The notes beneath the pieces are model-generated. The model was not told the DNA's origin and made no database searches. It was given only the letters and a program-made list of their open reading frames with translations. A stretch of 64,000 bases of DNA from Isoetes taiwanensis (Eukaryota > Streptophyta > Lycopodiopsida > Isoetales > Isoetaceae). The stretch is from contig JAJEKV010000057.1 in assembly GCA_021234155.1 (NCBI GenBank), positions 8,646,108-8,710,107 of the forward strand, written 5' to 3'. Shown here one piece after another: positions 31,241 through 52,708 of this stretch (the first letter of the stretch is position 1; each line of letters opens with the position of its first letter). The translations under genes and the position numbers were made by a program.

Positions 31241-31249
31241 AGATATTCT

Positions 31250-33120
31250 TTTTGCTCTTTCATCTAATTTATTGTTTTTTTAACATATCTAAGCTAATGT
31301 ATTTAACGTTTTGCATTGCATGCACAATGATGGAGGACAGAATATATATACAGAAAGAAAGCTTTTACGGTTCAACAAACTCTGATTACTGGTCTGGTTA
31401 CAATTATTATGGTTTCTTTTCATATCTTTTTTTTGTTCAAATTTCTCAATACGACGGCCTGGCTTTAAGCAACACATAGTATTTAAAAAAAATGAAGGTA
31501 TGAGTCACTTTGTTCATTGCCAATTATCTCCATTTACTTTGGGCAATTATAATTCCATTTTGTTGAGGTTATTTGGTTTATCCCATGCAAGAAGTCATTT
31601 CGAAGTTCAGATCTTATCTGCTGAGTTTTCAGTTTTGTAGATTGAATAGATTCCCTGCTTTAAAATTAATCACCAATTTTCAATGGTTTAAAGTGTACTT
31701 GCTTAATTTGATGATCAGATTATTCTTTCATTAAATCATTTGCCAGTTGATTCTTTGCTCATATTCTCTAAGTTTTCTTGAGTACGAATTGAGCATCCAC
31801 ACTTGAATATGTGAGTTGGGATGATCCATTTTTGCAGCACACTACATATTGTCTATAAGATAATTTGACTTTTGAGTGCTTATTTCCTTTTGCTTTCTAA
31901 TGGGTTCTGATTCTTTAAATCACATCTCATGACTCTAATTCATGTATTGTAACACAAATGGTCTACTTGTGGGTTCAACTCCCACATGTTCATTGAAGCC
32001 ACAAAAAAGTAAAGACAACTACTAAAGAAATTGGTAACGGTTGCCATAAGTAATCACCATTAGATATCATGTGTATTCGTATCGGTTAACTACTGGGGAT
32101 CATGTCAAAAAATCATATTAAGAAATTCAAACTAGTCTATTTATCACTTGATGGTATTGATGATTAATCACTATAGAACAACATAGCAACCATGCACTAT
32201 AAATTATCGTGTCGATATACACCTGAGGGTGTTGATGATTAATCACTATAGAATATCAGAGGGATTATGCACTCAAAATTACAATGTCAATGTACCAAGA
32301 AATATAGACGCGATCAAATATCATTCCTCTAAACTTGACATATTAACCAGTGCTACACACCATATACTTTAAGGCGTTATAGAGACCAACTACAATTATC
32401 ATGTTTCAATGCTATGTTAAAAAACAATATTTGTTTATTACATTCTAAAATCGTGTTCATGAACCATATTGTATAACTAGACATGGTTTGTAAACTTTTT
32501 GGCCCACAAAATTGTATTGATTTTTTAGTTTGATTTTCGCTACTAAACCATCACGTGGACTCATCTCAATTTTTGAACATATCTAGATTTAGTTCCATGC
32601 CCATATATCTTCATAAAATCCCTTACCTATGGTTTTTATTATTACTTAATAAAAACTCACTTCTTTAGCTTATAATTTAATTGTAAGCTCTTAAGAAGCA
32701 CATTGCAATCTTTCTTCCCTGATGACGAGTGACCGTCTATGCCCCATCTTTATGCTAGACTGTTCCCTAGCATGGGCTCCTCTCCCCGAGCTAAGAATAC
32801 AATGTTCTGAATGTCTTAAAGTATACTTCTTATTTACCAATTAGTGTAGCAATGATTTCAAACAGAACATGTTTAACGTGACATTCAAGATTACTTTCCT
32901 ACCTTCAGATTGAACTTCTCAGATAGATTCTTTCCTTTTGCCTGCTTTCCCACTTCTCCATTGGTGCCCCTTATGTCCTTGGTTAATTTCCATTTGTATT
33001 CTTTAATTAACTCTTAGTTTAGAAACAAAACCATCAACAAATGCAAACAACAATTAATCAATTTTAACCAAGCAATTATTAACGACGATTTCCAATTTGT
33101 CGCAGATGTCCAACAGAGGC
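31250..33120. other. No gene recognised
   Basis: The region is AT-rich with no long or conserved frame. A word gttgatgattaatcactatag occurs twice (about 32157 and 32232). Confidence 0.5.
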
Positions 33121-33239
33121 AATTTGGCATGCCCACAGATTCGATTCTTGCCCATCCTTCTCTCAAGCAATTTTGGCCATCTTGGTTCAAGAACGGCCTT
33201 CTAGACAGATTCCAACCTGATCCATCACGATTTAGGTGC

Positions 33240-33860
33240 AGATTCTTCCCTTTCAATCCTATTTTTCACAGACTTTTGCGGATTCAAACACTCCTTTTCC
33301 TTTTCCTTTTTCTTATGCCTTTTTATCTTCCCTTTCCCCCTCCCTTTTTCCCCCTTTCCCTTTCCCTTTTCTTTATGCCATTTTTTTCTCCTCTTTCCTT
33401 TCCATTTCTCTCTAACCTTTTTTCCTTCATTTTTTCGGTGCTCTTTTCTCTTTTTCTCTTTCTTCACCCTTTCCCTCTTCCCTTTTTTTCCGTGCTCTTT
33501 CCCCCTTTCCTTTTCCCCCTCCCTTTTTCTTTTTCCTTTCCCTTTCTCTTTTTCTATACGCTTTGTCCATCCCTTCTTCCCACCCTTTTCCCGTTTTCCC
33601 TTACCTTTTTCTCTTTTTTCCACCCTTTCCTTCTTCCCCTTTTCCCAGTGCCATTTTTCCCTTTCCTTTATCCCTCCCTTTTTCTATTCTTTTTTTTCAT
33701 TTTTCCATGTCATTTTTCCCTTCCTTTTCTCCCTTCATTTGCCCTTTTCCACTTCCCCTTTTTCCCTTCCCTTTTTTCTTTTTCTTTTTCCATTTTACCT
33801 ATGTCTTTCCTTCCCTTTCCTTTCTCCCTTTTTCCTTTCCCATTTCCCTTAAGAGATCAA
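33240..33860 (+). repeat. Polypyrimidine tract (~600 bp of C/T)
   Basis: The plus strand is almost entirely T and C in irregular ttccctttt patterns, interrupted by isolated A or G. It produces long meaningless Phe/Pro/Ser/Leu-rich frames on the plus strand and Lys/Glu/Arg-rich ones on the minus strand. It is a low-complexity tract capable in principle of triplex formation, not a gene. Confidence 0.9.
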
Positions 33861-33959
33861 ATCATGATCAGTCACGGTGGTGAGAAGTCGTGCAATAAAT
33901 CTCGGCCTTCATATTCAATAGGATAATCTCGGCCATTCAAATTAGGGCTTGATCCAAAT

Positions 33960-33991
33960 CCAATACGGCATAATATTATAATATAAGAAGA
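33960..33991 (-). mobile_element. Helitron 5' terminus (minus strand), orphan
   Basis: Read on the minus strand, the sequence starts TCTTCTTATATTATAATATT, preceded by A. It shares the TC-plus-TATATTATAA start with the right ends of the nested Helitrons at 42920 and 44712. The following cgtattggatttggatc-like sequence also resembles the copy ending at 42920. No matching CTAG hairpin end was found to the left, so the element is truncated or the other end has decayed. Confidence 0.5.
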
Positions 33992-34374
33992 TACTGGTCT
34001 TTTGCCACATTTGTTAATTTTATTTTAGAAATATTCATCAAAACTTTTACATCTTTTAAGGCTAGAAGTGCCATTTACCTTCATTTTCAATGAATAGATG
34101 GTAAATGGACTTTTAGAGCTAGGAGACAAGTGTCCCGAGCAGTTAGCAACTGCCAGGATCTTGCCCTATTTGTAGCTTGGCCTTCACGTTCCTTGCATCA
34201 GCCCTGTTGTGCACATCTCCACACTGGAATTTTCCTGAGCTCCCCTCCCTCTCCCAAAAAAAAAAAACCCTCCCTCTTTTCTTTTTTCCCTTTGCTATTA
34301 CTTTACCGTCTTGTTCCAGTTTCCTACTTGAGTTTGTCAATATGACCTGCTGTGGTTATTACCAAATTGGTTGA

Positions 34375-34505
34375 TGTGGTGATGGAGCCTTGATGGCTTA
34401 TATCAATGACTCTCTTATGGTTTTATAGCCTTGGTGGCTTATTTATGGTTGGAAGCCTTGGTGGTTGTTTTATGGTCTTAAAGCCTTGGTGGCTTATGTT
34501 GGTAA
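34375..34505 (+). repeat. Degenerate ~35-bp tandem repeat (about 4 units)
   Basis: The phrase agccttggtggcttat with tatggttttata-like spacers recurs four times. Confidence 0.7.
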
Positions 34506-34659
34506 CCTTTGGTGCCAATGGGCCCGGGGTCTTGTCTTACTTGTGTTATTCTTTTGCAGGATGAGTCAGTTGAGTTTGCGACGTTTGAATGGTGGAATTG
34601 CTGCTTGCCTTCAAGTTTCGGTATAGCCGGCAAGTCAAATTTGCCTGTGGCCTTCCTCT

Positions 34660-35114
34660 TCAACATATCTGTAAACCCAAAAAGGCCAGTAGGCATGAGG
34701 GTTCCTTTTCTTTTCTATTGTGTATAACATCCCTTAGAAAGTCAAGTCCCAAGGTACGCGTAACAGAAAGCTGCTCTCTCAAAGTTGGACATACATAAGC
34801 ATCTTTAGCTGCTTCCGACTTCCAATGACCATGAGCTTTGAAAAGACGATCAGGGATGTCGAAAGCTGCAGCAGTCGTAGCACCACCCCTCCTTCCAGAA
34901 TGAGTATCAAAGGCAGTGGGGTCTTCTCCGATAGCAAGCAAACAATGGCGGAACCATGCCCACAACATAGAGTATGAAATAGGGTTCCGACGCAAGGAAA
35001 AACTTCCTTTAGAAATTATGACGCTTCTGAACAAAGGACCCCCAGCAGGACCATCTACCTCTCTATATCTGGCAAGTGAAATAAGTTGTTATACTAGAGC
35101 TATAGGACAATATA
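34660..35114 (-). pseudogene. Tyrosine recombinase, C-terminal half (split by LINE)
   Basis: On the minus strand this reads CPIALV, a stop, then RYREVDGPAGGPLFRSVI and the catalytic core. Family residues are visible: HSGRRGGATTAAA (His and second Arg of the active site), HGHWKSEAAKDAYV (the His/Trp position and the nucleophile Tyr). This is the YR enzyme type of Crypton, DIRS or related elements, which integrate by strand exchange through a Tyr-DNA bond. The N-terminal half is at 48885-48264, on the other side of the LINE. The frame CNGLYCPIALV continues across the LINE target site. At least one nonsense codon makes it inactive. The exact element class cannot be told from this window. Confidence 0.8.
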
Positions 35115-35125
35115 ATCCATTGCAG
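35115..35125 (+). repeat. LINE target-site duplication, left
   Basis: The 11-bp word atccattgcag is identical to 48253-48263, directly after the LINE poly-A tail. Confidence 0.88.
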
Positions 35126-35162
35126 ATCTTGTTAGGGTTGAGAGAGACGTAAGGAGAACAGA

Positions 35163-36434
35163 ATGGAGAACCGAGGTGTGGGCCCGAAGGGACCCCTGCA
35201 GGGTATGCAGGAGACCATAGGTACAGATACGGCAGGGAAAGGTATAGGTATTGAGGCAGATTTAACAGGTCAGGGTAATGGTTTCGGGGATAGATTGGGA
35301 ACAGGGAAGGATGATTTGGGGACAGTGATGACAGAACTTTTTCAGAAAATGTCAATATCCATGCAGAATCAAATGATTGATATGATAAAGACTCTGATAG
35401 GGAATGAAACTGTTACTGAGAAAGGCGAAAAGCCTTTTTTTGTCTGTGGCGATTGGCTTATTCCCAGCATTCCTAGCATGGCGGAGACGAGGAGGACAAG
35501 ATCACAAACTATGTCGCCGGTGCAAATGCAGAGTCGGCTGGTGCAACCCATATTGGATGAAGTGAACCGAGAACAGAGAAGAATGCTGCAGAAACAAGAA
35601 CACAGAACAAAGCCATAGTTTCGAGGTATTCCTTCACTCAAACATGATTTTGTTCCCAACAGGTTAAAGGAATTAGAATCGAAGGCTGTAATAGGTTGCA
35701 TAAGGCATGAAGGGGTTCGATTGGCAGCCATAAGAATGGAATTAACAAAAATGGGAAAGAATGTGGATATCAGAAATATGTTCTGGCTCGATTTTCCTTT
35801 TTTTGTGGTAGAATGTGGAGATTCTCAGACTGTTCAGTTCCTTTTAAAAAAAGGAACTATTTTTAAGGCAAACTCACAATTCTATTTCCAAAAATGGAAT
35901 GCAAAGTTTGACCCCAATGATCTAAAGGAGCTATTTCATCCTGCATCATGCTCGGTTCAAGGCTTGAGTCCCATGTACTGGCATGAGGATATTTTTAAAA
36001 ACCTCTTTGCAGGAATTGGAGATTACATTGGATGGGAGACAATCCCGGAAAGAGCGCCGAGGATCTGGGTACAGATTGACATATTGAAAGAGATCCCGAA
36101 GCAGCTAATCTATAAAGATTACTATGGGGGAGAAGATCTTAAAACTGGATTGGACGGGATTACCAACCCCATGTGGAATTTGTGGGTTGAGAATGGAGGG
36201 GGGGTGTGTCAAGGAAAGATGGTAATAAATAAACAAATTCCTCAAACCATACCCATCCAAGAGAAACAAATCTCGACAAGAGAGAACTGGACTCCTGCAA
36301 ATAGGAAAAAAAGAAATAAAAATGGAAGTGCATACAAAAAGGCCAGAAAGCAAAAAGCCAAACAAGCCAAGGAAAATTTGAAACAAGAGATGCATAATAC
36401 AGGTAATCTTATGAAAGTATGGAGAAAGAAATAG
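35163..36434 (+). pseudogene. LINE ORF1, N-terminal part (one in-frame stop)
   Basis: ORF1 of plant L1 elements encodes an RNA-binding chaperone of the retrotransposition particle. The frame from ATG 35163 is broken only by TAG at 35616-35618 and then continues to 36434. The part after the stop resembles the DUF4283-type ORF1 domain: SPMYWHEDIFKNLFAGIGDY and ERAPRIWVQIDILKEIPKQL. A Lys-rich tail follows (KKARKQKAKQAKENLKQ). The protein then probably continued in the frame that starts at 36419, so a frameshift lies near 36420-36434. The DUF assignment is by resemblance. Confidence 0.75.
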
Positions 36435-38156
36435 GACCAGTTAAGAATGTCCTGGTCAGGCCCACTGAGGGTGGAAAAGGGAAAGACCTGGTCAAAGATA
36501 TGGTTCAAGGGAGTTTTTGTATTACTCCAGCCCATCTGGTTAGAAGTAATACTTTGACCATTGCTGAATCCACTAATCCCCCCATTAACCCATATCCAGA
36601 GTCTTCTGACTCTGATATCTCAGCTGGGGGAACAAGGTTATTCAAGGGAGACTGCTCCAGAAAGGGCATCAGTCCAACCAATCTGGAATTCTCCCCAGTT
36701 GGTGTGATGGGGAAACCAGATACACAGGAAGATAAAGAGGATAAAGAACTGCATGAGGTGCTGCTTCAGCTCATGGAAAGACAAGAAGATATGGAAAAAT
36801 AGAGGGTCCTGAATACCCCTATGGAAAAGGAGATAGGAGAAGAACCAGAAGGCAAATATAAATTCTTCACCACATCTCCCATGGAATATAATAGCAGCCA
36901 TGGAATAAATTACTACTCCTATATTTTAGTGTAGCCAAAATAAGCTTAGCTAAACTACCTTCAAATCGGGGCTAGAAGTTTCTAACACTTAGCTAAACTA
37001 AATGGTTTTTCTCCATCACAATTTCTTGCTTTTGGCTAAACTTTCAGAAAATGGAGAGGCGAATATTAGCCATCACGCTATAGTAATTTAAAAAAATCCA
37101 AGCATTTTGGCAAAGACATTGAATTTATGTAAATACATAAAAAGACACAAACATACATGAACATGTTCAAAAACCTAAAAGAAAAAAGAACTACATTGTT
37201 CCTTTTCCTCTAATGCTTCAACTTTGTATAAGTAAAAAAAGAAAAGAAATATATAAACTCTATTTGAAATTTCTTAAAGTTGGTACATACATTGGTGTTG
37301 AATTTTGGGCTAATCTATCCATTTTTTCACGTCCACTCTATCTTAGGTTTAGCTAATCGATGTCCTGGTGGATATGTCTGGAGGTAAAGGTTTGGCTATT
37401 CAACCTAAAAACTCACTTGGGCGGCAAAAAAATTGGGCTAAAATTTTCTTTTTTTTGAGCATTTTTTCCATTTACTTTAGCCGTTTTTCTTGGCAAAACT
37501 GCTACAAAATAGCCATTTGGCTAACCTTAGCCATTATTTTATTCCATGATAGCAGCCTGCATAATTCCTTGGATATTGGCACTGAGGAGATCACTTTCTC
37601 CTCAGAAGAGAGATCCATCGACCCTCTAAGTCCTACTGGCCAGGGTGTGGATGACGAAAGCCAAAAAAATGATAAAAAGTCTGATGGCCTAGGAATTGAC
37701 AGTGATGTCAATAGACTAATAAGCCCATTAGGCAAGAATTTGGGAGAAGACAAAGATGAGAGGTTCTTTACTCCTGCAAAAAAGATTGCCACACTATCTC
37801 CAGATGGCCTGGGAACTCATGTTAATAGACCATTAAGTCCAAATGGCTCTTTGCCAGAAGGCCTGGGAATTAATGTGAATAGACCACTAAGCCCATCCAA
37901 CAATTCCATACTAGCTGGCCTGGAAATTGAATCAGGAAAGAGCAATAGGCCAATAAGCCCAGCTAGACAGATCTTGGCTGACATTAATGGAGTTCAGAAG
38001 AAAAGCACTAATGTCACAGGGGAGGTGGAGATTGTGGAGGATAAATTTTATACTCCACATACAAGAAAGAAGGGCACTAGAGTGGTGCACTTCTCTGAAA
38101 ATAGTCCTGCCTTGAACTTGAGAAGCCAAGGCAAAAAGAATATTTCTGGCCAATGA
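36419..38156 (+). pseudogene. LINE ORF1, C-terminal part with SP-rich repeats (MITE inserted)
   Basis: The frame 36419-36890 (one TAG at 36800) joins 37557-38156 once the MITE at 36899-37548 and one 8-bp duplication are removed. SPMEYNSS then runs straight into LHNSLDIGTEE, so the first 63 codons of the open frame 37368-38156 come from MITE DNA. The C-terminal segment has four degenerate repeats of about 25 residues around GLGI..VNRPLSP, with TPHTRKK near the end. This region is probably disordered and rich in Ser-Pro sites. The ORF1 stop overlaps the ORF2 start as ATGA at 38153-38156, compatible with reinitiation coupling. Confidence 0.75.
36899..37548. mobile_element. hAT-like MITE (650 bp) in LINE ORF1
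   Basis: The terminal inverted repeats are perfect over 11 bp: catggaataaa at the left, tttattccatg at the right. The 8-bp direct repeat atagcagc flanks it at 36891-36898 and 37549-37556, the duplication size of hAT elements. Its removal restores the ORF1 frame, which confirms the ends. The interior is AT-rich with many tagctaaac and ggctaa words and no gene. Confidence 0.9.
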
Positions 38157-38875
38157 GGATCACAACCTGGAACCTGAGAGGGATTAAGGGTCCTCTCAAG
38201 AGGAAAAGGGCATTGATTGCAATAAAAAACATGAAATCAGAGATCATTATATTGCAGGAGCACAGATTGCCTGAATTCGAGTCCTCAAATTTAGGTAAAT
38301 GGATCATGCCAGATGGAGATTCAATTTGGGCTGCAGCTAATGGTACCAAAGGAGGCATATGTATGGCTTGGAAAGGATACAAATGTATGGAGAAATATAA
38401 GCATGACAGTGGCAGGTGGACTGTGGCAGTTCTGGAAAAAGGAGAAAATATTATTGGAATAATTAATGTCTATGCATCCACTGATCCAGCAGAAAGAGAA
38501 GTCCAATGGAAACAAATACAGTCATGGATCCAGAACCACCAAAACAGAAATTGGCTTATGGCTGGGGATTTCAATAATACACCTGTGTGGGATCAGAAAC
38601 TAGGGAAGCAAATGAATATGTCCAAAGGAGAAAGGAATGCCTGGGATAGTTTGATGTCGAATTTCATATATATTCCCCCTTCTTCATCACACCAATATTC
38701 TTGGTGCAATAAAAGGAAAGGTGATCAGAGAACCTATTGTCTACTGGATAGGTTCTACCTATGTAATGTTAATCTAAAGGATTGGGATGATTTAACAATC
38801 TCAAGTGATGTTGGAAACTCCATATCAGATCACCACCCTCAGTTCTTGGGAAATATGATATCTCCACAGAAATGA
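38153..38875 (+). pseudogene. LINE ORF2 endonuclease domain (APE type)
   Basis: This domain nicks target DNA to prime reverse transcription. Starting at ATG 38153, it has the full set of APE-type motifs: TTWNLRGIKG, IILQEHRLPE (catalytic Glu), GIINVYAS, LMAGDFNNTP (Asp/Asn), CLLDRFYL and ISDHHP (final Asp-His). About 241 residues are open. After SDHHP the frame is lost, with two shifts between about 38860 and 38905. The coding sense then resumes as FKFNTAMLQNKQFCEEFKKY up to the Helitron border at 38959. ORF2 therefore cannot be translated in one piece even without the Helitron. Confidence 0.9.
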
Positions 38876-39131
38876 AGCACAAAAACCTCATTCAAGTTCA
38901 ATACAGCAATGCTTCAAAATAAACAGTTTTGTGAGGAGTTTAAAAAGTATTATACTCAACTAGTAATAATGCCCAGCGTTGCTGGGCTAACTTGGGGACT
39001 AACTTGGGGAACCTGTTAATGTACTTACTCAATTCAATCCACATATCCTGGAATTTCCATAGGCATTTTGGTTTGAGAAAAGAAAAAATTGGAGAGAGGT
39101 TTAAATCACACCGGATTGTTTTATTAAATGA

Positions 39132-39577
39132 CTAGTAATGATGCCCAGCGTTGCTGGGCATAAGTTGGGAGCCTATAAATGTTTTGATCATGCATGTCCT
39201 TGAATGGTTTCTTGTTGTTAAAGGAGAAGTTCACACGAAGGTATACCCAATTAGGTCATACTGGCACATCTTGTAATGTTAAAGACATCTTCTTCCTTGG
39301 CAGTACTAAGATATCTCTGGATGCGGGCCTTTTCTTTAGCAAGCTTATTGATTCCAATCAAGACCCGAGGTATGGAAGCCGAATTATTGGACAATGCCTC
39401 CAAGATTTTGGGGCAAGCTAGGATTAGCTATTAAAAAGTGACATTTCAGCCCTCAGATCTATGTCAAATTATCTGTATTATCTTATTTTGGGCGCGATTG
39501 AAGATGTCAAACTATCTATATCGTCTGATCTCGGCCGCGATTGAAGACACAACGTAAAACATTATAATATAAAAAGA
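39132..39577 (-). mobile_element. Alternative: 446-bp non-autonomous Helitron
   Basis: The minus-strand start TCTTTTTATATTATAATGTT at 39577, next to T (39578), matches the family 5' consensus. Paired with the CTAG end at 39132 it gives a compact 446-bp element with correct flanks. The interior contains two copies of a gcgattgaaga word. This pairing competes with 39132-42920. Confidence 0.5.
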
Positions 39578-41398
39578 TGTCTCTATTTTGTGGCATCCAT
39601 TGTGTATATTTGAAACATCCAATGCACCTTGTGACATTTGAAACTGAAGTAATTCAAATCTCAATAGAGGACCAAACTATTGTTGGGCATAAGTTGGATT
39701 GTTAAAATAAGTTGGATTGTCAAAATATTGTTTGCTATTTGATGGGCTAATTTATTCCAAAATATTGTCTCTATTTGATGATTAAGGATAGCATTTATGT
39801 CCATTCATGGCAAAGACATCAAATCATATCAATGGCAACACATTCATGCCACATCACACATTTAATAAATCATTGAATGCCGACTTGCTTATCCAAAATT
39901 GTCAATTACACCTTGCAAATAATGTAGGTCTTTCTTTCATTTTACTCCTATAGACTAACAATTTATCAACGAAGAAAGATCTAACATGAATATTGATATA
40001 CATTATTATCAAGCAACATCTTGCAAGTCTAGATAGAGCAGTTTCTTTCTGCACTAAGTGAGACTATGAAAAAAAAATAGTAAATTAATTTATCATTCTT
40101 TGTGGCAAAATATTGTCTTTACTTAAAAATAGATTCATGTTGTTTGAGCAAATTCCATGACCAGGCTCTGGCTATTTTTGCAGCATACTGTTATGGAGCC
40201 TTTAAACCAGCATGAACATATTTTCAGGCTTCTTATTGTCACTGCATCCATTGGCATCTCTCTCACTTAGGCATCATTCATATGTATTGATCCAATGCAA
40301 AGAAGTATTGATCCAATGCAAAGAAGTACATGCCATGAGTACAGGTTTTTCTAGAATCTGACTGTTACTGAAGAAAGACATTTGCACCTAGATCTAGCCG
40401 TTGAGCTTCCAATGATTTCATTTTGTAAATGTCATACATAACTTGTTACGCACATTCCATCATTTCAACAAAAGGATCAGATTCCATCACCCCAACTTAA
40501 GCCAGCAAGCAAACTCACAAAATTTTCATGTACCAATTCAGGTCTAGCTGCAAAACAGCCACATGGTCCATCTGCAAGACAGTCAAAATGTACGATTCCA
40601 TGAACACCTTTTACCTTGAATTCCCATGAAACTTAAATTAAATGCTTAAGATGGAGTATTTTAACTATTGAAGGTGCTCCTATGAGCTAAGAACAGCTAT
40701 AATTTAATATTATATCCAATGCTTGCACAGCAGCGTCATACCTGAATCTAAAGAGCTGCATTAGTTATTTACGCAATTTTTCCGAGCAAAATAACTGGCC
40801 AAGACAACCAAAATGTTATGACTTCCTTCCGAGCCTCAGTTTGATCTAGTGAAATGGAGCAATACCCCGAATGCCTATGGTGCTGCATGTATTGGGAAGG
40901 TTGCAATCACAAATGATGGATTTGAATAAGATGGCAATGATCAAATGGTTTTAGCTCAATCAGCAAATAAGGAACAAAATAGAGTCTTACCTTACAGCAT
41001 TAATGTCATTATTTGAGTTACTTCCAGTTGAGGAAAATGGCAACTGTTACTGCAAGGGAACAAAATGTCAAAATCTTTCAAAACAAACAATGTGATAAAC
41101 AGAAGAAGAAAGAAAGCGCAGAGCAGTACAGCTAACGGCATAGCCAGACCAACATAATTTATATTTTTTTTGGCTACTCAATGATTAAGCTTACAAAATA
41201 AATTTGTAACGCCGCCATTTACACCTGCCGCAACCTGTGACAATTCAACCATAAAAGATGAGCAATGGAAATTCACGTACTGACATGGCAAATAGAATAT
41301 ATATTTGTGATAAGAAAGTGCACAGATTTATAGAAAAAGATGTGGTAAAGCGCATGCATACAGAAAGGCATTTACAGTTGCCTAGCCAGATTGACAAC

Positions 41399-41734
41399 TT
41401 ACTGTTCTTTGCATCTTTGCATCAAGGTAACGGCAAGCTCTACAGAATTTGTAAATCCTTGAGAATGAACCTGAGTAGAAACTGAAAGAGAAAAAAGATT
41501 GAGAGTGAGAATACCTGAGTTGATGTTATGCCTGAGGCTCCAGATATGCCCCAGCCATGGTTCTTTTTTCCTCCTTTCTCTGATAATTCTGAATGGGTAC
41601 AGGACAGGGCTCAAAATTAAACCTAAAGCTGCACGACTAAGCGATAGCCATGCATTGTTTCTTATTAGTTGATTTCTGTTTCTGGCCGTATTATACTCTT
41701 TTAAGTTCTTCAGCAGGAGGCTGAGAGATTGCAA
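41399..41734 (-). other. Unrecognised frame inside Helitron cargo
   Basis: A minus-strand frame of 111 codons reads LSLLLKNLKEYNTARNRNQL and LGLILSPVLYPFRIIRERRK. It looks protein-like, with a possible membrane segment followed by a basic stretch. It may be a captured exon. I do not recognise the parent gene. Confidence 0.3.
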
Positions 41735-41854
41735 CCCAAAAAGAGCTATGCCATACGCAGTTAGAGAAGGGCTTGGTCTATTTCAAAATAAGATCCTTGC
41801 CATATTTAAATCAAAGAAACATGAACCTTTACTGCCTGTATTGCAACAACATAC

Positions 41855-42129
41855 CAAAGAGGAAATTCATATACAAACTGCAGATATGGCCAAGCAGGAT
41901 CCATAACCGGTTCTTCCTCTTGAGGATCAAAACCCTCGGTATTGCAGTTCTTCACGAAAAGATTCTGTCTTTCCAAATTAGGGACACCCCTAAAAGCCGG
42001 AAGCTTCTCAAAAGTAACAGTCAATCCACCATTTGCTGGGTTTGATTTTGGGGAACGACTACCTGATGCAGCCAATCTTGTTGAAACTGAATGGCGAGTA
42101 CCCGCCATGGCAGTATTTCTAGAGCCCAC
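41855..42129 (-). pseudogene. Captured PP2A B' (B56) regulatory subunit exon, internally deleted
   Basis: B' subunits direct protein phosphatase 2A to substrates. The minus strand reads SRSPKSNPANGG, then FEKLPAFRGVPNLERQNLFV and FDPQEEEPVMDPAWPYLQFV. These match two parts of the conserved B56 core that are normally about 70 residues apart. Here they are joined by KNCNTEG, so an internal piece is missing. The match ends at a good splice donor (CTTTG|GTATGT, 41855/41854). It lies inside the Helitron in the Helitron's own sense orientation. It is a fragment, not a working subunit. Confidence 0.78.
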
Positions 42130-42920
42130 AAGAATAGCTGCAGATTGTCTAGCATTTAGAACTGCATCACCCTGAACAGCCGAACCATAGTCCCTGCCTG
42201 CGCAACAGGCGCACTTGTTGTCACAACTCCGGAGGGCAAAGCCCCACTGCTTTCATTTTTAGACAGTTCTCTGGGGAAAAACATATTCACTCGATTCTAT
42301 GCCTACCAGCAAATTAGCTTCTCCATTTTGAAAACCTAACAGCTAAGGCTTCTTCAGAAGCAACCGACCTGTATCCAACAATCACGCTTTAATGAAAAGA
42401 AAATCAAGCTGGCCGCAGGAACAGTAGCTTGGAATGTCTGGAGAGGTCTCGATGACTCCCATTGCTGGAGTTGAACCAAGAACAATAGGATCGACTGGCC
42501 CGATCTCAGCCTAAATTCGAAATCAATGAAGCACTCCGCTGTGGAACAGGGCCGATGGAACAAAACCTAGTTATGCCATAGCAGGAAAAATCTTAACCAT
42601 TAAATCTGGACGTAGGCTCCAGAGCTCATAAAGCTCCCTAAATCGCTCTGATAGCTTTAGTCAAGTGCCAGAACCCGTTTCTAGAAACTCACTTGCCCGA
42701 GGTAAGAAAACCCTAAGCCTTTTTTTGGACTGATCCCTAGATTTCGTGGCTTCGTAAAAAAAACAGGTCTTTGTTTGGACCTTCTAAAAAAGGAAATCAC
42801 ATTTAAGAAAAAAAAAAGGGGCTTTGTTTGGACCCTTTGATCTAATTAGGTTATTTGTGGCCGTCAGATCTAGGGCTGGATCCAAATCCAGGAATTACGG
42901 TATAACATTATAATATAAGA

Positions 42921-44699
42921 TATATATATAGGAAATTGCCCACGAAAATATATAGGCATTTCGGATTGTGGAATTGTTGTTGCATTTGGGGCAATTTAAT
43001 TCTCATTTATTCCCAGCATAGCTTGCAATTATTTTTATGTGTTGTGAGGTATTGCCTCATATGCTTGCAATTATTTTTATGTGTTGTGAGGTGGAATTAT
43101 TGCATTGCCCCAGTACCACTATATATGAGTGGCATTTCATGCCAATGCCGTAACAAAGTGTGCTTAGACACATGGGCCAAATATTAATCTATCTAATTTC
43201 AACAATTTTTTGAATTGTATTCAAAGGTCATAATTCTTGAAGAGGGAATATCACCTAGTATATTGCCTTGATCAAAAGCCAAACTTAGGCAATGAGTTAT
43301 GCAATTATATAGAGCGTGTGAATTGGATTCTTCATATACTATTAAATGTGCCTTTCCCTTTTCCTCTTTCCCTCTTTGTCTTTTCCTACTCTTTATAGTT
43401 GTGAATTGCCTGGTAGTTGACCGGAAAGGTTTATTTAAGGAGTATAAAAATTGGTCATCCTTATTTGCTTCCCATTTATTACGTGCCATAACAGATTGTA
43501 GAAGATTTTAAAAAGCATAAATGAAACACATAGAAACACATAGCCAGATGTGCATGGCAGGGCTCGAAACTATACGTTTTGCAAAAAAACGTAGAGGTCA
43601 TGACCCATTTTATCTTTAACAATTACAGAATATGTTAAATAGAAGAAACTGTGGGATTTTCACAAACTGAAGCAGTTGTATAATTACCTTTAATCCATGT
43701 AGTTACTGGTACCCACAACTACTCTGCAACAGACGGTATTTGCTAGAAATTGAAAGGCTTCATCTACACACATCAAGAACCATTTGGATATTGTAAATAA
43801 ACCAAGCTTCGTAATAGCATTAGATATGGACAATGACATGAACTCCTCATAAAATACCTTGGCTTCATGAAAAAAATCTGCATCTTGGCCTGGTATCACC
43901 AAATTCATCAGCTTCCGAAATCAAGAGAAGCATCCAAGGGATCCGACTTGCCTTTTTGAAATAGAAGCAAATTCAGAGTCGAAACTCAGATTAAATCGAC
44001 CTCCTCTATGTTACCAGATGGATGACTAAAACCAATGCTTTCATAGCAGTAAACCTAGCATATATTGATGGTGTCCACAACCATCGCTTTGTAGCCATCT
44101 CCAATCCGAAATACCTAATAGTAGAGGAAAATAGTTTGAAATGCTACTCAATGGGATATTTGAGCTATGCTTAGCTATGCCAAGGAAGTAAAACAACAAC
44201 AAAAGTGAGGGAAAGGCATAGATCGAAGAGCTAAAAACCCCATTTGAAGCTATCAAAAAAAGGTCAAAGGAAAACATCTTCTGAATTGCAATTTTGAGGG
44301 ATCCGCCTATGAAGATTCGGCTAGTTAAAAGCTTGAATGAAAGCCTGAGTATGAGCAATAACAAAACTCAAAACTCAAAAACAGATTTGCTTACGTCTAA
44401 TCTAAGCAAGTAATGTGCACCTGGATTAAGAAAGAGCAGTTTCTACTGGAAAGCTCGACAACAGCATTCTCTGATCTGAGAAATCGCAAGGAGCAATTCG
44501 CTGGAGTTCCAGCGACCATGGCAAAGCTCTGATTTCGGCGCCTCTACCTAACCGGAACTGATGCAAGGCATGATCGTGGAAAACACGATAGGGAAAAGGG
44601 CTTTTTAGGGTTAGAATTCACACAAACCATCCGATCTAAGCCATGAATAATCTCAGCCGTCCAATTTAGGGCGACATTCACAACACATTCACTATAGTT
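42921..44699 (-). other. 5' half of the outer Helitron: cargo of unknown origin
   Basis: There are minus-strand frames at 43908-43690 (NLVIPGQDADFFHEAKVFYE) and 44364-44041. The DNA just inside the 5' end (44680-44500) looks like a gene leader (ccctaaaaagcccttttccc, then cctctaccta in reverse). A 38-bp unit, gcttgcaattatttttatgt..., is tandemly duplicated at 43020-43095. No known family is recognised. Confidence 0.35.
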
Positions 44700-44749
44700 T
44701 TATAATATAGGATTGCCTAGACTTCCCCTATCTGAATCAATGAAGCACT

Positions 44750-47605
44750 TTGTACAAAAGTTCAGGGACATCAAAGCCTTGGATTAAAGAATGGGGAAAG
44801 GAATGGAGTCTAAAGAGGAAAAAAGAGAAACAAGATGTGTATGAGGCCATGAGGGAGATCAGGGGATCCTTGTTTCAAGATAAAAATAACAAGATGTGGC
44901 AGGAAAAGGAGGCAGAGTTAGAAATAAAAGTCAAAAAAATAGAAGAGGCAGAAGCCAAAAGCCTGGCCATAAGAAGTAAGTGTAAATACATTAATGAGAT
45001 GGATGATGCAGGGTCAGCTTTCTTCTTTAGGACTGCCAAAAGCAGAATCATTAACAATGGAATTGTTTTGGTTAAAGATGGGAAAGGTAATACCTTGACT
45101 GCTCAAAAGGAGATACAGGAATATTTTCATAAGGAATACCAAAACCTGTTCACCAAATATGAGGCAGATACAAAAGCCATAGAGGATTTCTTCTCTCAGA
45201 TTCCCAAGGGACAAGAAATCAAAGATGAGGAGCTTCTTCAAACCCCTGAGGAGAAAGAAATAAAGGAAACATTACAATCTATGGCACATGGTAAGAGCCC
45301 AGGCCCTGATGGGTTCCAACCTGAATTCTATTTAGGTTTCTGGGAAATCATGAAAGAGGATCTAGTAACATTCATTCAAGGAGCTTGGAGGGCAAGATAT
45401 TTACATCCAGCTATTAATGCAGGGCATATTACCCTCATTCCAAAAGTTAGCTGCCCTACAAACATTGGTGAGTGGAGGCCAATTTCACTTACAAACACCA
45501 CATACAAGGTGCTTGCTAAGATCCTTGCAAACAGATTGAAGCCTAACCTAATGAAGGTCATAAACCCCTGCCAATCAGCATTCCTTCCCCAAAGGAACAT
45601 TCTGGATAATTATATTGGAGCTGCAGAAGGTTTGCATTGGAACAAGCTTTCAAAACAGAAGTGCATGCTTCTAAAACTAGACTTCAGAAGGGCTTATGAC
45701 ACAATTAGCTGGCAATTCCTGGAGAAAGCCATGGCCCACATTGGACTGCCTGAGGAAGTGTACCAGAAAGTCTATGGATTTAACATGACTGCCTACTCAT
45801 CCTTGATTATTAATGGATCTCCCACTGATCAGTTTCCCTGTAGAAGAGGAGTAAGGCAAGGTTGTCCCCTGGCTCCTTACCTATTTCTGATAGTGGCCGA
45901 GGTGTTGACAAAGCAGGTGATGCACATGCAGGAAAAAGGGGACATTCAATGTCTACAATTAACAGGAGGTGGAGGTACCTTTTCCATTATGCAATATGCT
46001 GATGATACCTTTGCTTTTTTGAAAGATGATGGAGAAAGTCTGCCCAAATTTCTATCAGTAATGGAAAGGTTTGGCTGTATGTCAGGTGTGTTTTTGAACA
46101 AAAGTAAGTGTGCTATAATTATGGAATCACAGGAAACATCAATGCTTGGAATTAAAGTGCTGAATAAAGATTCTGGTACAGTCATATTAGGTATCCCTTT
46201 GGCTCTAAATTCATCCTTGAAAGGTCTATGGGAACCAATAGTGACCAGAATTAAAAAAAAACTTGGGACATATGCTTCTTGCTTATCTTTGGCTGGAAGA
46301 ATACAGATTGCTAATGCAGTAATAGGGAGTACTCATGTATATTTTTCCTCAGCAATCATAGGAGACAAAGCTTCTTATTCCAAGATAGAGGTAGCTATCA
46401 GGAAATTTATTTGGCAGGGATCTCACAAGGTTGCATGGGATGATCTGACCAAGTCAAAGAAGGAGGGAGGACTGGGATGCAAGGACCTTTTTGTTCAAGC
46501 ACAAGCCCTGGCAGCTAAAATGATATGGAGGGCTATCCATAACAACTCCCCTTCCCCAGCCCAAATATTGGTTAAATACTGGGTGCAAGAATCACATCCT
46601 GTGGGCAGTCATACTCTGAAGCATCAACTGCCAGAGTCAGCATATTTTCAATTTAACCCTTGCTCGAATACCTCCAACATCTTGAGGAGAATGTTTGAGG
46701 CCTAGAATTTAGCCTCCTTATGCTATAGACCACCATGTATTGATGAAACTGCTAAGGAGATAAAAATTTTCTGGCATCCAGGTATAGCAGGAAGTGATAA
46801 TAACTGTATGGCATGTATTCATCCACAAAAATACATGCAATGGCATCAAGCAGGAATAAGACAGATAGGGGACCTTTACCAGGAAGGATCAGGTTGGAAA
46901 TCCTGGGAAGAAATAGCAGAAAGAACCAAAGGTTCAATTCTGGATAAGGAAATATACAATACTGTCATGGATAAAGTTGAGCATGTTGATGAGCTGGTTG
47001 ACAGATACAGCCAATGGAATCTCAAGGGCAAGGAAGTATATTCAGTGAAGGAAATATATAAGGCCTTAATCCAACATAAACCTTCTAGAGCTACTCTTCT
47101 CTGGAATTGTAGGCAGAAGACTCTTGCAAAAGTATGGAATAAAGGGTGGAAGAATTACACTGCAAATAAGATAAAGACATTTACATGGCTTATTTTGCAT
47201 CAAGGGTTGATGACCAATCAAAGGAAAGCCAAATTTGATCCGGTTATATCAGTAAGATGTCCCTTAGGATGTGGGGAGGTTGAATCCTCCAATCATGTCT
47301 TCCAATGTAAGATTATTACTGAATTCTGGAACTGGACTGCCCAGATAAACAAAGGTGCAATTGGAGAAAATGGTCTCATTCAATTCCTAAACACAGATGA
47401 CAGGGTCTTGAGCACAACAAGAGCACTCTGCTGTTGGGTAGTATGGAAGCACAAGAACAGGGTCACAATGGAACACAAGAATCCAAATATCATCTGGCTG
47501 AAACAAATATTCTTATCTGAACTTATCAACTCGGCCATTGCCCATAGATCCCTAAAAGGGATGAATTATGACAAAGGCTGGACAGCCTTTGGTAGATTTC
47601 GGTGA
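44750..47605 (+). pseudogene. LINE ORF2 reverse transcriptase and zinc tail (one in-frame stop)
   Basis: This copies the LINE RNA into DNA at the nicked target. RT motifs run in order: GKSPGPDGFQPEFY, LIPKV...EWRPISLTN, LKLDFRRAYDTISW, RRGVRQGCPLAPYLF and the catalytic QYADDTFAF near 46000. The frame is open from 44750 to 46705. It is broken by a single TAG (46703-46705) and continues in the same frame through 46808-47605. The end carries the zf-RVT tail: TWLILHQGLMTNQRKAKF, then CPLGCGEVESSNHVFQC. No RNase H domain is seen. Upstream of 44750 the frame shifts by one base near 44740 from the sequence that borders the Helitron (LPRLPLSESMKHF). Confidence 0.93.
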
Positions 47606-47636
47606 ACATATGACTTTTTTGTGATGAATCTAACCT

Positions 47637-48029
47637 GTGATGATGCTATTTTGCACAGATGCTATGAGGAGACTTAACAGATATGGAGCAGCAGATCGAG
47701 GAATGGGGGTAGCTAAGGACTCGGACAGCGAGGAGGCAAATCTCCCCATGGTTGAAGAAGAGGAAATTTTTATCCAATTGAAACAGGAAATGATTCATGC
47801 AGCAGCACTAAAGAAGATCTTGAAAAGAGCAGAGACCTGGAGACATAACAACCTTAGGCCTTTCTTTATGAACCTATTCCATAAATGGCAGCAGAAACGG
47901 GAGGCCCATGTGCTTCTTTTACTGGACTTCACCAACTATCCGGTTGTCAAATTGGATGTGTTGCTAAACATATTGGGTAGACGGACAGTGCAGGATCTTA
48001 CCTTGCAGGACCTAATCGAGGCACAGTAG
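47637..48029 (+). CDS. Small third ORF of the LINE (ORF3, 130 aa), unknown function
   Basis: An intact frame of 130 codons starts 31 bases after the ORF2 stop. It is mostly charged and helical: DSDSEEANLPMVEEEEIFIQ, then KKILKRAETWRHNNLRPFF, ending ILGRRTVQDLTLQDLIEAQ. No known domain is recognised. Most plant L1 elements have only ORF1 and ORF2, so an undamaged extra frame in an otherwise damaged element is notable. It could also be an ORF2 tail, a captured fragment or chance. Its amino-acid make-up favours real coding. Confidence 0.55.
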   Translation: MMMLFCTDAMRRLNRYGAADRGMGVAKDSDSEEANLPMVEEEEIFIQLKQEMIHAAALKKILKRAETWRHNNLRPFFMNLFHKWQQKREAHVLLLLDFTNYPVVKLDVLLNILGRRTVQDLTLQDLIEAQ

Positions 48030-48122
48030 ATCAAATCAGTCCACTTAATAACTCTAAACTTTGTTTTTCTGATATTTATAAGTTTGGACTATGTATCAGA
48101 CATTAGTCTGGTTTTTTTTTGA

Positions 48123-48148
48123 ACACTCTCCTAACTATAAGGAGTGTG
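48123..48148 (+). other. Possible 3' UTR stem-loop of the LINE
   Basis: acactctcctaactataagg followed by agtgt can fold with one bulge (ACACT/AGTGT and CCT/AGG). Stem-loops near LINE 3' ends are often bound by the reverse transcriptase. The role here is inferred. Confidence 0.35.
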
Positions 48149-48238
48149 TATATGACATTATGTCTATTAGTGTATCACTGATGGTACACAGTACTATGAT
48201 GTGATTTTCTAGTATGAATACAAAACCCACCTTACCTC

Positions 48239-48252
48239 CAAAAAAAAAAAAA
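48239..48252 (+). other. LINE poly-A tail
   Basis: A run of A's lies directly before the right-hand copy of the target duplication. It fixes the LINE 3' end and its plus-strand orientation. Confidence 0.9.
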
Positions 48253-48263
48253 ATCCATTGCAG
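48253..48263 (+). repeat. LINE target-site duplication, right
   Basis: atccattgcag, identical to 35115-35125. In the minus-strand recombinase frame this word encodes part of CNGLY. Confidence 0.88.
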
Positions 48264-48885
48264 CGTGCGACTGAGACCCAAGCACCCGAGGCATATTGGT
48301 CAGTTTTTGAGGAGCGGGGATAATGAAACTAGCATGCGAAAAGCAAAAATAATCTGATGCCAATGAAGGTTGAGTAACTCTGCACTACGCATGAATGCGA
48401 CAAAAGAAAGGACAATGCATAACGCATGAGATCCAACAAAGTGGAATTTGGGCCGAAAACTTATCAATAATGAGACGGACCAAATGAGGTAACAAAGGGC
48501 GTTTCCTAGCAACTTCAACTGGAACTTACGCTTGGCAATATCATAGGCAAGACCCACAAGAGGGTGATCATTGGGTTTAGGTAGACTTGCCAAAACATGA
48601 TGGAAGCTGATAGATGCCAGAGTAGCATTGACTCGTGACATTGAAGACCACAAAGTCATCGTATAAGTAAGAAAAAGGCATATTGTAGAAGGAGCAGCAG
48701 GGAGCTAGAATAGGTCCCTAGCACATCACCAAGCTTTAAACTCATGTCAAGGTTGTGAATATCTCTTTAGAGTAGATGAAGCTCGACATCCTAACAAGTT
48801 ATGCTTAAAAAGCTCTTTCAATTTGCACAATTCCATGTTGGAAGCGTCAACCTCATTCCAAAATTGAGACTTAAAAACATCTGCA
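48264..48885 (-). pseudogene. Tyrosine recombinase, N-terminal half (split by LINE)
   Basis: On the minus strand, an AG acceptor (ttgcag near 48885) opens a frame. It reads ELCKLKELFKHNLLG and STLKRYSQPWHEFKAW (arm-binding core type), then ATLASISFHHVLASLPKPND and FVAFMRSAELLNLHW, which holds the first catalytic Arg. It ends KTDQYASGAWVSVARC at the LINE target site. Small frameshifts and stops (near 48740 and 48300) must be bridged to read it through. The second half is at 35114-34660, and the two halves plus one copy of atccattgcag give one continuous recombinase. An upstream exon may exist beyond 48885 but was not recognised. Confidence 0.75.
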
Positions 48886-48889
48886 ATAA

Positions 48890-49950
48890 AAACAAATAAA
48901 CTCACCATCAATAGCCAAAAGAAACCTTAGAGCAATAATCGGGCTAGACGGTTTGCCAAGTGGGAATGATGAACATCCTGATCCTTTAACCAAACATTGC
49001 CCACCTGCAAAGTAGAGATGGTCCACATTAGAGGGGAGCCAATCACCTGAATCCATTTGCAAGATAGGCCACCGAGGAGCTGATTCCCAATGGAAAATAA
49101 CTAAAGACATATTGGTTGCACAATCTAAGGCAAACTCTAAGGTTTCTGTTTATGGAGATGCCCACAAGGGCCATTTTAAGGAGCATTTCATTGCAATGTT
49201 TCTTTGGGCAGTTGCAGACCATCTATCACTCTAGGTAAGCAACTCAATTTTCTTTTTATTGCTTCGTATTTTATGCAGATTAAAGCTTTGAGTTTCAGTT
49301 GGTATGACAACCTTTCATAGTTTCTTTGCCATAGGAACTTTCTGCTCCTCCTCTGGTCGCTCAAATTGGGAGATCACATTTTTACTACTTACACAAATTG
49401 TACAGGTGAGAACATTCTTTTATATCTATGTCCATTTTTTTGTCTTTGATGGGTGTTGCTCTAAAGTTTGTGGGTTGGCCTTTACATGTATCATTGAGAC
49501 TGCTGGATCAACGTTTCACAAGGCCATCACACAAGGTATCCATGCTAGCTCAGTTGTTATCGATTTCATAATTTTTTACAACTTGAATCATATTATCTGC
49601 ATTTGCCAAGAAGTCGTATTTAATTAAAGTGGGACTCATTCCATTCCCATTTTTTTTCGGAACCCGGTTAATTTACATAAAAAGTAGCACCCCGACCCGA
49701 AAACTATCCTTAATTCCAATTTTTGAATAAAACTCTGAATCCGAGCTTTGCTGCAGTTTTCCCTGGTTCGCGAGTCGAGAACAAAAACAATGCAACTGAA
49801 ACAAAGGAAATTCATTAAAGTTTAAAACCAAAGATCTAGTTGAAAAAGAATTTTTATTAATAAATTGAACAGATACAATGTATTTTACATCGGACGCAGA
49901 GACCATGGTGGTCTTGCTATCACTACAGTTACATCATCTTGGTAGGTGGT
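48890..49950. other. No gene recognised
   Basis: There are short frames on both strands (minus 49110-48871, plus 49304-49627) without known motifs. The part next to 48885 may be intron or leader of the recombinase element. Confidence 0.4.
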
Positions 49951-49955
49951 CCACC

Positions 49956-52708
49956 TTAGGGGATTAACTTGCGGGGCCTCTTCATGCCGTCTGTAAGCCT
50001 TGGGGGCAACCTGAAGAGTGTGGAATGCCTCACGTCCAGGTCGGTCATGTCCAGACACGTCTTGTACCACTGCTCTATGTCAGCTTTGTCATAAAAAAGG
50101 GTGGGGTCTTCGATCATATTGATGGCAAATAGTGCCAGTTCCAGACCACCAAATCCCTTGTGTCCCAAAGTAACCAGAAATGGGGGGGAGCTATCGTCTG
50201 CCTTAAATGGGACCACCCCGAATCCAAGCTTCCTCTTCAGAATTGCCATAGCACGTTCAGGGAAAGGAAGGGTTTTGACGTTACGCCGACTTGGTGTTGA
50301 TGTAGGGTTGACATAGACGGTTCAATTCCTTCATGTCTTCCTCATCAAGGGCAGCCTTTTCCTTGTAATAATCAAAATCATGGTATTCATTAGATGCAGC
50401 GTTGCGGAACTTCGTGATGCCTTCTTCTAACGCCTGGCTTGCCGCTTTTAGGGCTGTGGCATAATCCTTTAGATCCGTGCATTTTAGAACTCACGGTCTT
50501 CCTTAGCGGGATTGTTCCATCAAGATTTTGCCTTGTAGTTCAAAGCGTTTCTTTGTCCGGTGAGGCCACGTATCCTCTTCATGAGCGCTTGTCAAACAAC
50601 TTGGGGTCCGGGTGCTTGGAAATTCTCCATTCTTGTCCTTGACTTGCCTCTTGTCCATTTAGCCCATATCTCGAGTCCATTTCTCCCGACCGCCTTCGGT
50701 GCTAAGAATGAGGTCATATTGGTCTGAGAGAGACTCCCTACCTTTCCTTGGTGTTCTTCTTCTTCTCCTCTTCTTCCTCTCCCTCATCATCTTCCTGTCC
50801 CTCCGCCAGAACATATCTGCATAGTTTCTCAAAGGTCTTCCACTTATCCGAGGGAGCCACGTTTCCTTTAGGTCGCCGAGGACAACCCAATGCTTTCCAC
50901 TGTTGCCCTGGCGTGTATGATCTTGGTGGGGATAAAGGGTGCATTGGTCAATGTACCAATGTCGAGCATGAGCGTATCTACAACAACCCGGGAATAAAAT
51001 GGTAAATAGTAAGTTATGGGTTTTCGACTGTGATCGGTGAAAGTCCCTTGAATATCTAATTTTCTTTTACTTATCTGCGTTTTTCGATTTCCGAAGTCGA
51101 AAGCTCTAAATCTTTGATTTTTACGTGTTCCCACGGCTTTCGACTTCGTGAGTCGAGAAACCCCGTGAAATCGGCAAATGTTAGGATGGTAGGGCTTTCG
51201 ACGAGTCGTCAAAGCCGGTAAACTACGTGAAAATTTGAGGATCAGAAAGAGCTTTTCGACTTCGAGTCGAAAACCGAGAAGAAGTAAAAAAGAAAATTAG
51301 ACATTCAAGAGACTTTTCGAGTCGAAAGTCCCTTGAATGTCTAATTTTATGGTTTTCTGGGTTTTCGACTTCGCGAGTCGAGAAAGCCTTGATGATAATC
51401 GGCAAATGTGAGGATGGTAGGGTTTTCGACTCGCGAAGTGAGAATGGAAAGATTCGAGAGAGTTAATTACCTTACGTAGTGGCACTTTCGCTATTGTGTT
51501 GGCAGCGCTGGCTAATGCTGGCCGATTAGGTTCTTTGGCGTCTCCGCCGAAAAGAACTCGCGACTCGCTCGGCATATCTATCCTTGATCCTTTCGCGGCA
51601 CCTCCTTCTCCGCCTGCCGCAATACTTGAGGCGCCCTCGAATGCTGACCGTCTACAACCCGTAACCGGACGTCTTTTCCCTTCAGATCTTCCTCGGACTT
51701 CCGGTGAACAACTCAATTGCCGACTCGCTAAAAGGTATGACATCCGCAGGGCATTGGATCGCAATGAGATGTCGCACCATCGAGTTGAATCTCCAGCATG
51801 TGTGCCGGATTAAATTCCCTGGTTGAACAAGACGGCATCTCCCGTGCAAACCTTCACCGCCTAATGTCTAGCGGCTACTGTGTGTGATATTCCCAGCGGA
51901 TATCTTGAGCTAGCTCCATTTTACGGCCCCCTCTGCGGAAATCCTGATCGATCATCCGGATCCATTATTGGAGAGTCGACCATATCTTCGTCATCTTCGT
52001 CATCTGATTCCTCCCGTGTGGTGTCATCTTCCCCATTTGTGTTTTTTGGTGGACTTTTTTGTGTATGAACCACAACTTCATTCCCCACTGTAGAGTGTTG
52101 TAGAGCCTACAGCACAGTAGAAGTGAAGCTCCCCATATTGAACAGTTTTTCCCTGACTCTGGAAATCTCCATACCAAGCTCCCTGGATGTTAGGGTTCCG
52201 GCCTCCTTCATCCCTTCCAGATCCTTCCACCCAAGGTTTTGACAATTTAAAGGCGCCGGCCTTTTTTCGGTGCCCTTAGCCTTGCTCATGGAAGAGTGAG
52301 AATAATTTGAAAGCGCTAATTTTTTGGTGCGATAGAACTTACTCTTCGGCGTCCCTCGACATGTAGTGTTAAATGCTTCGGATCCGGGCCTTGAGGCGGA
52401 GAGCACAACACCGATTTTCTTGTACTTGTCTCAGGAGCTCTTCTTGTCCCTTTGGTGTAGAAAGCAGATCTTTCTCCTTCCCACTTGTCGATACCTCGAC
52501 ATACCACCAAGAATCTCTTTCTGCCAGAAGCTCTCATCTCCGGTCCCTCGATGACGAAGAATGGAGTTCGCCGCTGATCACCGGTGAGTCCGAGGTGAAT
52601 CTTCGCAAGAAGAAAGGATGGATCAGTTAAGGTATTCGACAAAAGAAAAACCTCAGAGCTCACCGGGGTGTTTGTCTTCTTCTTCTTCTTGGGGGCTGGT
52701 AGAAGCAT
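49956..52708 (-). pseudogene. Frameshifted coding relic of an unknown protein
   Basis: Protein-like sequence runs along the minus strand in changing frames. From upstream to downstream it includes TPFFVIEGPEMRASGRKRFL (about 52600), SPRSYTPGQQWKALG-like and KWKTFEKLCRYVLAEGQEDD with an acidic run (about 50860-50770), DQYDLILSTEGGREKWTRDM (about 50690), RIRGLTGQRNALNYKAKS (about 50580), CTDLKDYATALKAASQALEE (about 50480), and KLGFGVVPFKADDSSPPFLV (about 50230). I do not recognise the family. The order and composition suggest one multi-exon gene or transposon ORF that has decayed. GC content is higher than in the rest of the window. Confidence 0.4.
51083..51444. repeat. Cluster 1 of short TCGACT/AGTCGA palindromes (7 copies)
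   Basis: Imperfect palindromes such as ttttcgacttcgcgagtcga (51362-51381) occur near 51083, 51141, 51195, 51252, 51311, 51362 and 51423. The arms are conserved and the 2-8 bp centres vary. The class is unknown. Confidence 0.75.

Follow-up and report, generated by a model that had tools for sequence, protein, structure and literature searches.

The stretch analysed here, called the window below, comprises 64,000 nucleotides of the lycophyte Isoetes taiwanensis (contig JAJEKV010000057.1, positions 8,646,108 to 8,710,107 of the forward strand) and holds a set of mobile elements that have inserted into one another. At the bottom lies a broken tyrosine-recombinase gene, probably part of a retrotransposon with split direct repeats. 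It is interrupted by a long interspersed nuclear element (LINE), which in turn contains a miniature inverted-repeat transposable element (MITE) and a Helitron, and this outer Helitron contains an inner one. We take this four-deep nest to be real and the product of ordinary transpositions, with a probability of about 93%, since its borders are matched by element ends and empty sites in other copies from the same genome. Each insertion has such an empty site, and the nest is in this sense an unusually clean one. Most of the layering had been proposed earlier from the sequence alone (the original prediction), and we state below where that proposal held and where it had to be changed. Labels such as L037 (loci) and C41 (contigs) are our own.

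The recombinase gene lies on the minus strand in two parts. The 3′ part (34737–35125), placed by alignment, contains the HxxR, H-W and Y boxes and ends in the left target-site duplication of the LINE, and the 5′ part (48264–49145), placed by comparison with the uninterrupted genomic copy L037, contains the N-terminal region and first arginine boxes, with several frame breaks, together with the end of a reverse transcriptase (RT)/RNase H frame. Between them stands a plus-strand LINE of the L1 type (35126–48252), recognized by its Pfam domains (DUF4283, Exo_endo_phos, RVT_1 and zf-RVT) and by comparison with seven other genomic copies, taken from the 20 LINE rows; endonuclease, RT, poly(A) tail and target duplication are all present, as in L1 elements. 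The 11-bp duplication that had been claimed at 35115–35125 and 48253–48263 is borne out, with ATCCATTGCAG at both positions on the plus strand and the poly(A) run before the right copy. Removal of 35126–48263 joins SKTDQYASGAWVSVARC to NGLYCPIALV, and L037 reads SKTDQHASGAWVSVARCNGPYCPIALV at the same junction, where its stretch is SSKTDQHASGAWVSVARCNGPYCPIALV. The recombinase frame thus continues across the site as proposed, aligning with database relatives as well as with L037; copies that fail to read across were looked for, and those examined do read across. A genome search with positions 34660–35700 (the best 40 of 233 candidates) returned 41 rows: one is the window itself, and the other 40 divide evenly between the recombinase (20) and the LINE (20). 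The border is spanned by no non-self row, all 20 non-self recombinase rows end at or before 35125, and eight LINE rows start exactly at 35126. When the translated BLAST was confined to the junction, 19 matches spanned the exact join, 0 to 4 spanned the joins shifted out of frame, and 20 spanned each join shifted by 3, the best scores there being slightly below that of the exact join. The LINE had been called full length and is nearly so; relative to five copies (L022, L023, L024, L026 and L028), ~24 nt are absent from its 5′ end. Among the best 120 of 1642 matches, RT relatives reach no more than 37% identity to it. The LINE also has a long acidic frame (36407–38156) with repeated peptide motifs. 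The stop codon of this frame and the following ATG overlap (ATGA). A small frame (47634–48029) lies 3′ of the RT frames, and the first two frames of the LINE are fused in L029 into one of 784 aa.

The MITE, 650 bp long (36899–37548), has 11-bp perfect inverted repeats, CATGGAATAAA, at its ends and is flanked on the plus strand by two copies of the 8-bp duplication ATAGCAGC (36891–36898 and 37549–37556). Among the best 40 of 1248 candidates from the genome, 39 non-self rows match it, 38 of them over its full length, at 91–93% identity. The 8-bp duplication is a trait of this family: all ten copies read at both ends have it, nine perfectly and one at 7 of 8 positions. The MITE is absent from this site in all seven fetched LINE copies, and in L032 the empty site has the same length. 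The element had been described as hAT-like, and the 8-bp duplication on which this label was based stands; the label itself is unproven, and another superfamily that makes 8-bp duplications may apply instead. Terminal sequences of the hAT type follow the pattern 5′-YARNG, which CATGGAATAAA does not fit.

Helitrons begin with TC at the 5′ end, finish with a hairpin plus CTRR at the 3′ end and insert between A and T. The outer, non-autonomous Helitron (38960–44712, minus strand) agrees with this pattern throughout: its 3′ end, at 38960, has CTAG and a hairpin, its 5′ end, at 44712, has TC, and its flanks are A and T without a duplication. The original prediction of a Helitron between A/T flanks inside the LINE therefore stands on these ends and on the empty LINE copies, since the outer Helitron is present at this site in none of the six fetched LINE copies that reach it, five of which align across it without a gap. 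The aligned copies are strong evidence for the insertion. Coding continuity is weak evidence here, because the BLAST joins are ambiguous: in a wide translated search the exact join gave seven spanning matches, compared with none without the removal, and shifted joins scored at least as well, as discussed below. The proposal that every border is backed both by target sequence and by coding continuity thus holds for the target sequence and is weakened for continuity at this site. When the minus-strand frames of both Helitrons were compared with Pfam, the only family matched was B56 (see below); an autonomous partner with RepHel was not sought. A further Helitron-like 5′ end lies on the minus strand at 33966–33988, immediately left of the recombinase element, and the plus strand has other Helitron-like hairpin ends, at 12110 and 24459.

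For the inner Helitron, which had been proposed without coordinates, we find borders at 39132–42920 on the minus strand, because its ends are shared with other copies and an empty site exists in L080. A search with positions 39100–39660 (best 40 of 1201 candidates) gave 43 non-self rows, and 18 of these share a start at 39131. In the same search 12 of the 43 pass 39577 to at least 39643, and a shorter inner Helitron, 39132–39577, was rejected on this count. A search with positions 42700–43200 (best 40 of 869 candidates) gave 40 non-self rows. Of these, 39 extend no further than query base 234, with 24 stopping at 42920–42923, and the remaining one starts there. This last row, which lies on contig C1042 and was read in part (L080), is an outer Helitron without the inner one and differs from the outer Helitron of the window by two mismatches, one 12-nt gap and one 1-nt gap. 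Its flank compared with the LINE scores 24, which is no better than chance resemblance (200 shuffles reach up to 28), though nine bases beside the end agree. Like the outer element, the inner Helitron is non-autonomous and lies between A and T, and the ends of the two are similar. Its minus strand carries (41806–42252) a gene fragment for the N-terminal part of a PP2A B56 regulatory subunit, an internal stretch being absent; the fragment matches PF01603 at E=1.1e-5 (25.1 bits, the cut-off being 25) and solved B56 structures at E=2.7e-7, with one stretch missing relative to the latter. Elsewhere in the genome, at C41 (L081, C41:119190–119260), Helitrons stand head-to-tail, the 5′ end of one abutting the CTAG end of the next, and a relative of the inner Helitron is the one that follows the other's 5′ end; the flank on C1044 (L082) is similar, and the stretch there ends just short of the join.

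The original prediction described the bottom layer as a tyrosine-recombinase gene. The recombinase is there, and what had been missed is that it appears to belong to a retrotransposon with split direct repeats, of the PAT/Ngaro type, in which the recombinase piece is inverted in the window. This assignment draws on 13 of the 20 recombinase loci, which were fetched, 11 of them with upstream extension, so that 14 loci including the window were compared. The plan seen in the other copies is A1 – RT/RNase H – recombinase – B1 – A2 – B2, with the repeats in the same orientation. A1 and A2 are direct repeats in five of the 11 extended loci (L037, L039, L040, L044 and L047, at identities of 97.3, 98.6, 87.3, 97.8 and 90.5%), at least two B copies are present in seven of 13 loci, and a repeat segment follows the recombinase in the same orientation in 12 of 13; in the remaining locus, L046, it precedes the recombinase, again in the same orientation. 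L037, the only locus scanned for it, has an RT upstream of the recombinase (RVT_1, E=4.9e-10), and RNase H is read there from the frame, without a Pfam match. The recombinase frame of L037 is open over 348 aa and matches Cre at E=4.9e-5; against PF00589 it reaches 18.0 bits, under the cut-off of 27.1. The catalytic R, K, HxxR, H/W and Y of tyrosine recombinases are nonetheless present by alignment, and three of the 13 loci have one open frame with all the catalytic motifs that were looked for. An invertible or cassette-array system was considered at first and dropped once A1 and the RT turned up.

Where the ends of B (five copies) and A (four copies) meet, they join as ...GCTCTAGAA/GTCCCATTTACC..., the slash marking the join, which falls in one arm of an inverted repeat with arms of ~22 nt that by eye differ at one base. 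In ungapped self-comparison, 42 positions match over 65 bases of this B–A region, and BLAST finds in L037 an inverted match of 80% there. No target-site duplication was seen by eye at the three copies that show both ends of the retrotransposon (L039, L040 and L047). The scanned stretches of L037 and L049 gave no methyltransferase family, and a zinc-knuckle match in the 5′ part of the element is weak and below the cut-off. The lack of a methyltransferase points to Ngaro, and the zinc-knuckle match would still allow PAT. At L038, extra tandem A2/B units of ~1 kb each lie behind the recombinase.

In the window, this plan is reduced and rearranged. Read along the plus strand, the copy consists of the A2 repeat with a spacer (34062–34737, plus strand, matching L037 at 73% and L041 at 88%), then the recombinase piece in the opposite orientation, reaching to 49145 with the LINE excluded, and then the B repeat core (49142–49177, plus strand, recognized from other copies). 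A2 and the B core are the only repeats retained, and the RT part is lost. The inversion of the recombinase piece is found in the window copy alone among the 14 loci compared. Its breakpoints overlap by only 1–2 bp at 34737 and by 4 bp (GTTT) at the B core, which speaks for repair or template switching and not for site-specific recombination; the flip thus points to an accident of repair or of reverse transcription in this one copy.

Several observations weigh against the nest as we read it. All the empty sites come from other copies within the same genome, and that of the inner Helitron is the single copy L080, in which a TA run is 4 nt longer at the join. Beside the MITE site, ~30–40 extra nt are present in six of the seven LINE copies, only L032 being clean. 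In wide translated BLAST, the shifts −1 and +2 outscore the exact join at the LINE site for the best relatives, because the window copy changes frame upstream, and at the Helitron site the shifts +1 and −2 give 40 and 39 matches with higher scores, because the window LINE has one extra base ~64 bases past the site; in a local search at this site, the exact join and the in-frame shifted joins have equal scores. It could also be argued that the nest is an artefact or chimera of an assembly which, in extracts of its publication, is presented as a gap-filled long-read scaffold assembly (PMC8566536). However, each of the examined borders falls where the element concerned ends in its other copies, with target duplications or the expected A/T flanks, and the 5′ end of the outer Helitron is placed both by its own sequence and by the LINE copies, so that we give an artefact almost no credence. 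As for the sequence of events, the proposal that the recombinase element came first, the LINE second and the MITE and outer Helitron after it is upheld by junctions that read across in recombinase copies and by LINE copies that are empty. The MITE and the outer Helitron cannot be ordered relative to each other by nesting. The last place proposed for the inner Helitron is valid with respect to the outer Helitron family. Both may nevertheless have arrived in the LINE at once, the outer Helitron bringing the inner one with it, in which case the last two steps would be one event. Helitrons carry along anything between their ends, and nesting cannot tell where the inner one joined the outer. Yet L080, the one other outer Helitron that was read, lacks the inner one, although few outer copies have been seen, and the flanks of three relatives of the inner Helitron (on C41, C1044 and C1106) are not outer Helitron; a joint arrival is therefore possible and, in our judgement, rather unlikely. 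The nearest-relative identities (recombinase, 90.5%; LINE, 97% over the first 575 nt and ~82% over 1.8 kb; MITE, 93%; 3′ part of the inner Helitron, 99%) give no dates for the layers.

The bottom layer, too, can be read differently. Within the window the recombinase stands alone, Pfam finding no family on the minus strand upstream of it (48264–56000), and its named relatives are bacterial integrases, all of which would suit a Crypton, a bacterial-type integrase or a host gene outside any retrotransposon. Relatives were also found in viral contigs (at least 19 loci, at most 30% identical among the matches listed) and on plasmids (at least 19 records, at most 29% identical among the matches listed), and a search of phage DNA gave only ~30-base matches at E=0.1. 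In other copies, however, this gene stands downstream of RT/RNase H and is enclosed by split direct repeats, L037 being the direct contradiction, and we consider a lone recombinase extremely improbable. A retrotransposon being preferred, its window copy might still come from a subfamily with a normally inverted recombinase, as is described for kangaroo of Volvox carteri in sections of the source that bear on it (PMC4157794), whose order the window's A2 – inverted recombinase – B resembles. Against such a subfamily stand the co-oriented recombinase and repeats in all 13 other loci and the inversion junction itself, which is passed by none of the 20 recombinase rows, 16 of them stopping within 6 bp of it (best 40 of 233 candidates). 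The RT part of the other loci, moreover, has no match in the window at 30001–34061 or at 49178–56000. A kangaroo-like subfamily is thus improbable, if less so than a lone recombinase, and we retain a split-direct-repeat retrotransposon of PAT/Ngaro type in which a single copy has been flipped.

These observations fit the following course of events. A tyrosine-recombinase retrotransposon with split direct repeats inserted first; this copy lost its RT part, and the recombinase piece between A2 and the B core was turned around, presumably before the LINE arrived. An L1-type LINE next entered the recombinase gene, probably by target-primed reverse transcription, leaving its poly(A) tail and the 11-bp duplication. 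Into this LINE, the MITE inserted with an 8-bp duplication and, independently, a Helitron in minus sense inserted between A and T without one. The second Helitron, with similar ends and the PP2A B56 fragment aboard, lies in the first, again between A and T, and probably arrived at a time when the outer Helitron was already in the LINE. What the sequences show directly is the borders, the empty sites and, in other copies, the repeat anatomy of the bottom element; the enzymatic mechanisms are inferred.

Elsewhere in the window, inverted repeats of ~240 bp that are ~90% alike lie at 1286–1526 and 19578–19817, with 18 kb between them. They enclose a frame of 682 aa (13994–16042), which we presume to be sulfate-transporter-like, a name given without a family search.

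Nested transposons are ordinary in plants, and the nest itself therefore changes little; the bottom layer matters more. In the parts of the literature that bear on it, the plan A1 – genes – B1 – A2 – B2 is known from PAT, Ngaro and VIPER elements (PMC4157794, PMC6681497, PMC5890265), and retrotransposons with a recombinase and split direct repeats are described from algae, animals, fungi and protists. Extracts of a 2011 survey of 274 genomes call green plants devoid of DIRS1-like elements (PMC3266345). Against any claim of novelty, a later paper lists DIRS1-like elements for Viridiplantae (PMC4157794), a review states that DIRS occur in plants (PMC6696364), and a fern annotation contains 361 DIRS pieces, amounting to 45 kb (PMC6890710). 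The term 'DIRS' appears nowhere in the main text of the Isoetes taiwanensis genome paper (PMC8566536), and the open-licence literature, searched in part, yielded no description of a DIRS, Ngaro or other tyrosine-recombinase element from a lycophyte. The element is a retrotransposon of a known kind, found in a lineage from which there are few records of its like. More tentatively, and at a little less than even odds, the locus may represent a recently mobile lycophyte family, with A1 and A2 up to 98.6% identical and an unbroken recombinase frame in some copies, in which the B–A inverted repeat is the putative site of the recombinase, the window having caught a flip of the sort that leads to kangaroo-type elements. 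If this is true, a lycophyte family that combines RT and recombinase with split direct repeats would help to connect the algal elements with those of land plants, and the copies with both repeat pairs would be material for testing circle formation and integration by the recombinase.

Set beside known systems, the upper layers are familiar. Both Helitrons resemble plant Helitrons with captured gene fragments in their TC start, hairpin and CTAG end, A/T insertion and the fragment inside, and no difference of kind is seen. The LINE shares with plant L1 elements a DUF4283 first open reading frame, endonuclease, RT, zinc-binding domain, poly(A) tail and target duplication, and it differs from them in an extra acidic frame between the DUF4283 and endonuclease frames and in the small frame at its end. 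For the bottom element, kangaroo of Volvox carteri offers split direct repeats and an inverted recombinase, the latter being matched here by the window copy only; the other 13 loci are not inverted, the window copy lacks the RT and no subfamily is seen. The closest likeness would be to Ngaro-like and PAT-like elements of the DIRS order, which in the relevant portions of their descriptions have RT/RNase H followed by the recombinase, the A1 ... B1–A2–B2 plan and the inner repeats downstream (PMC4157794, PMC6681497). The element described here shares all of these features with them, and it is set apart by its lycophyte host and, in the window copy, by a recombinase that has been turned around.

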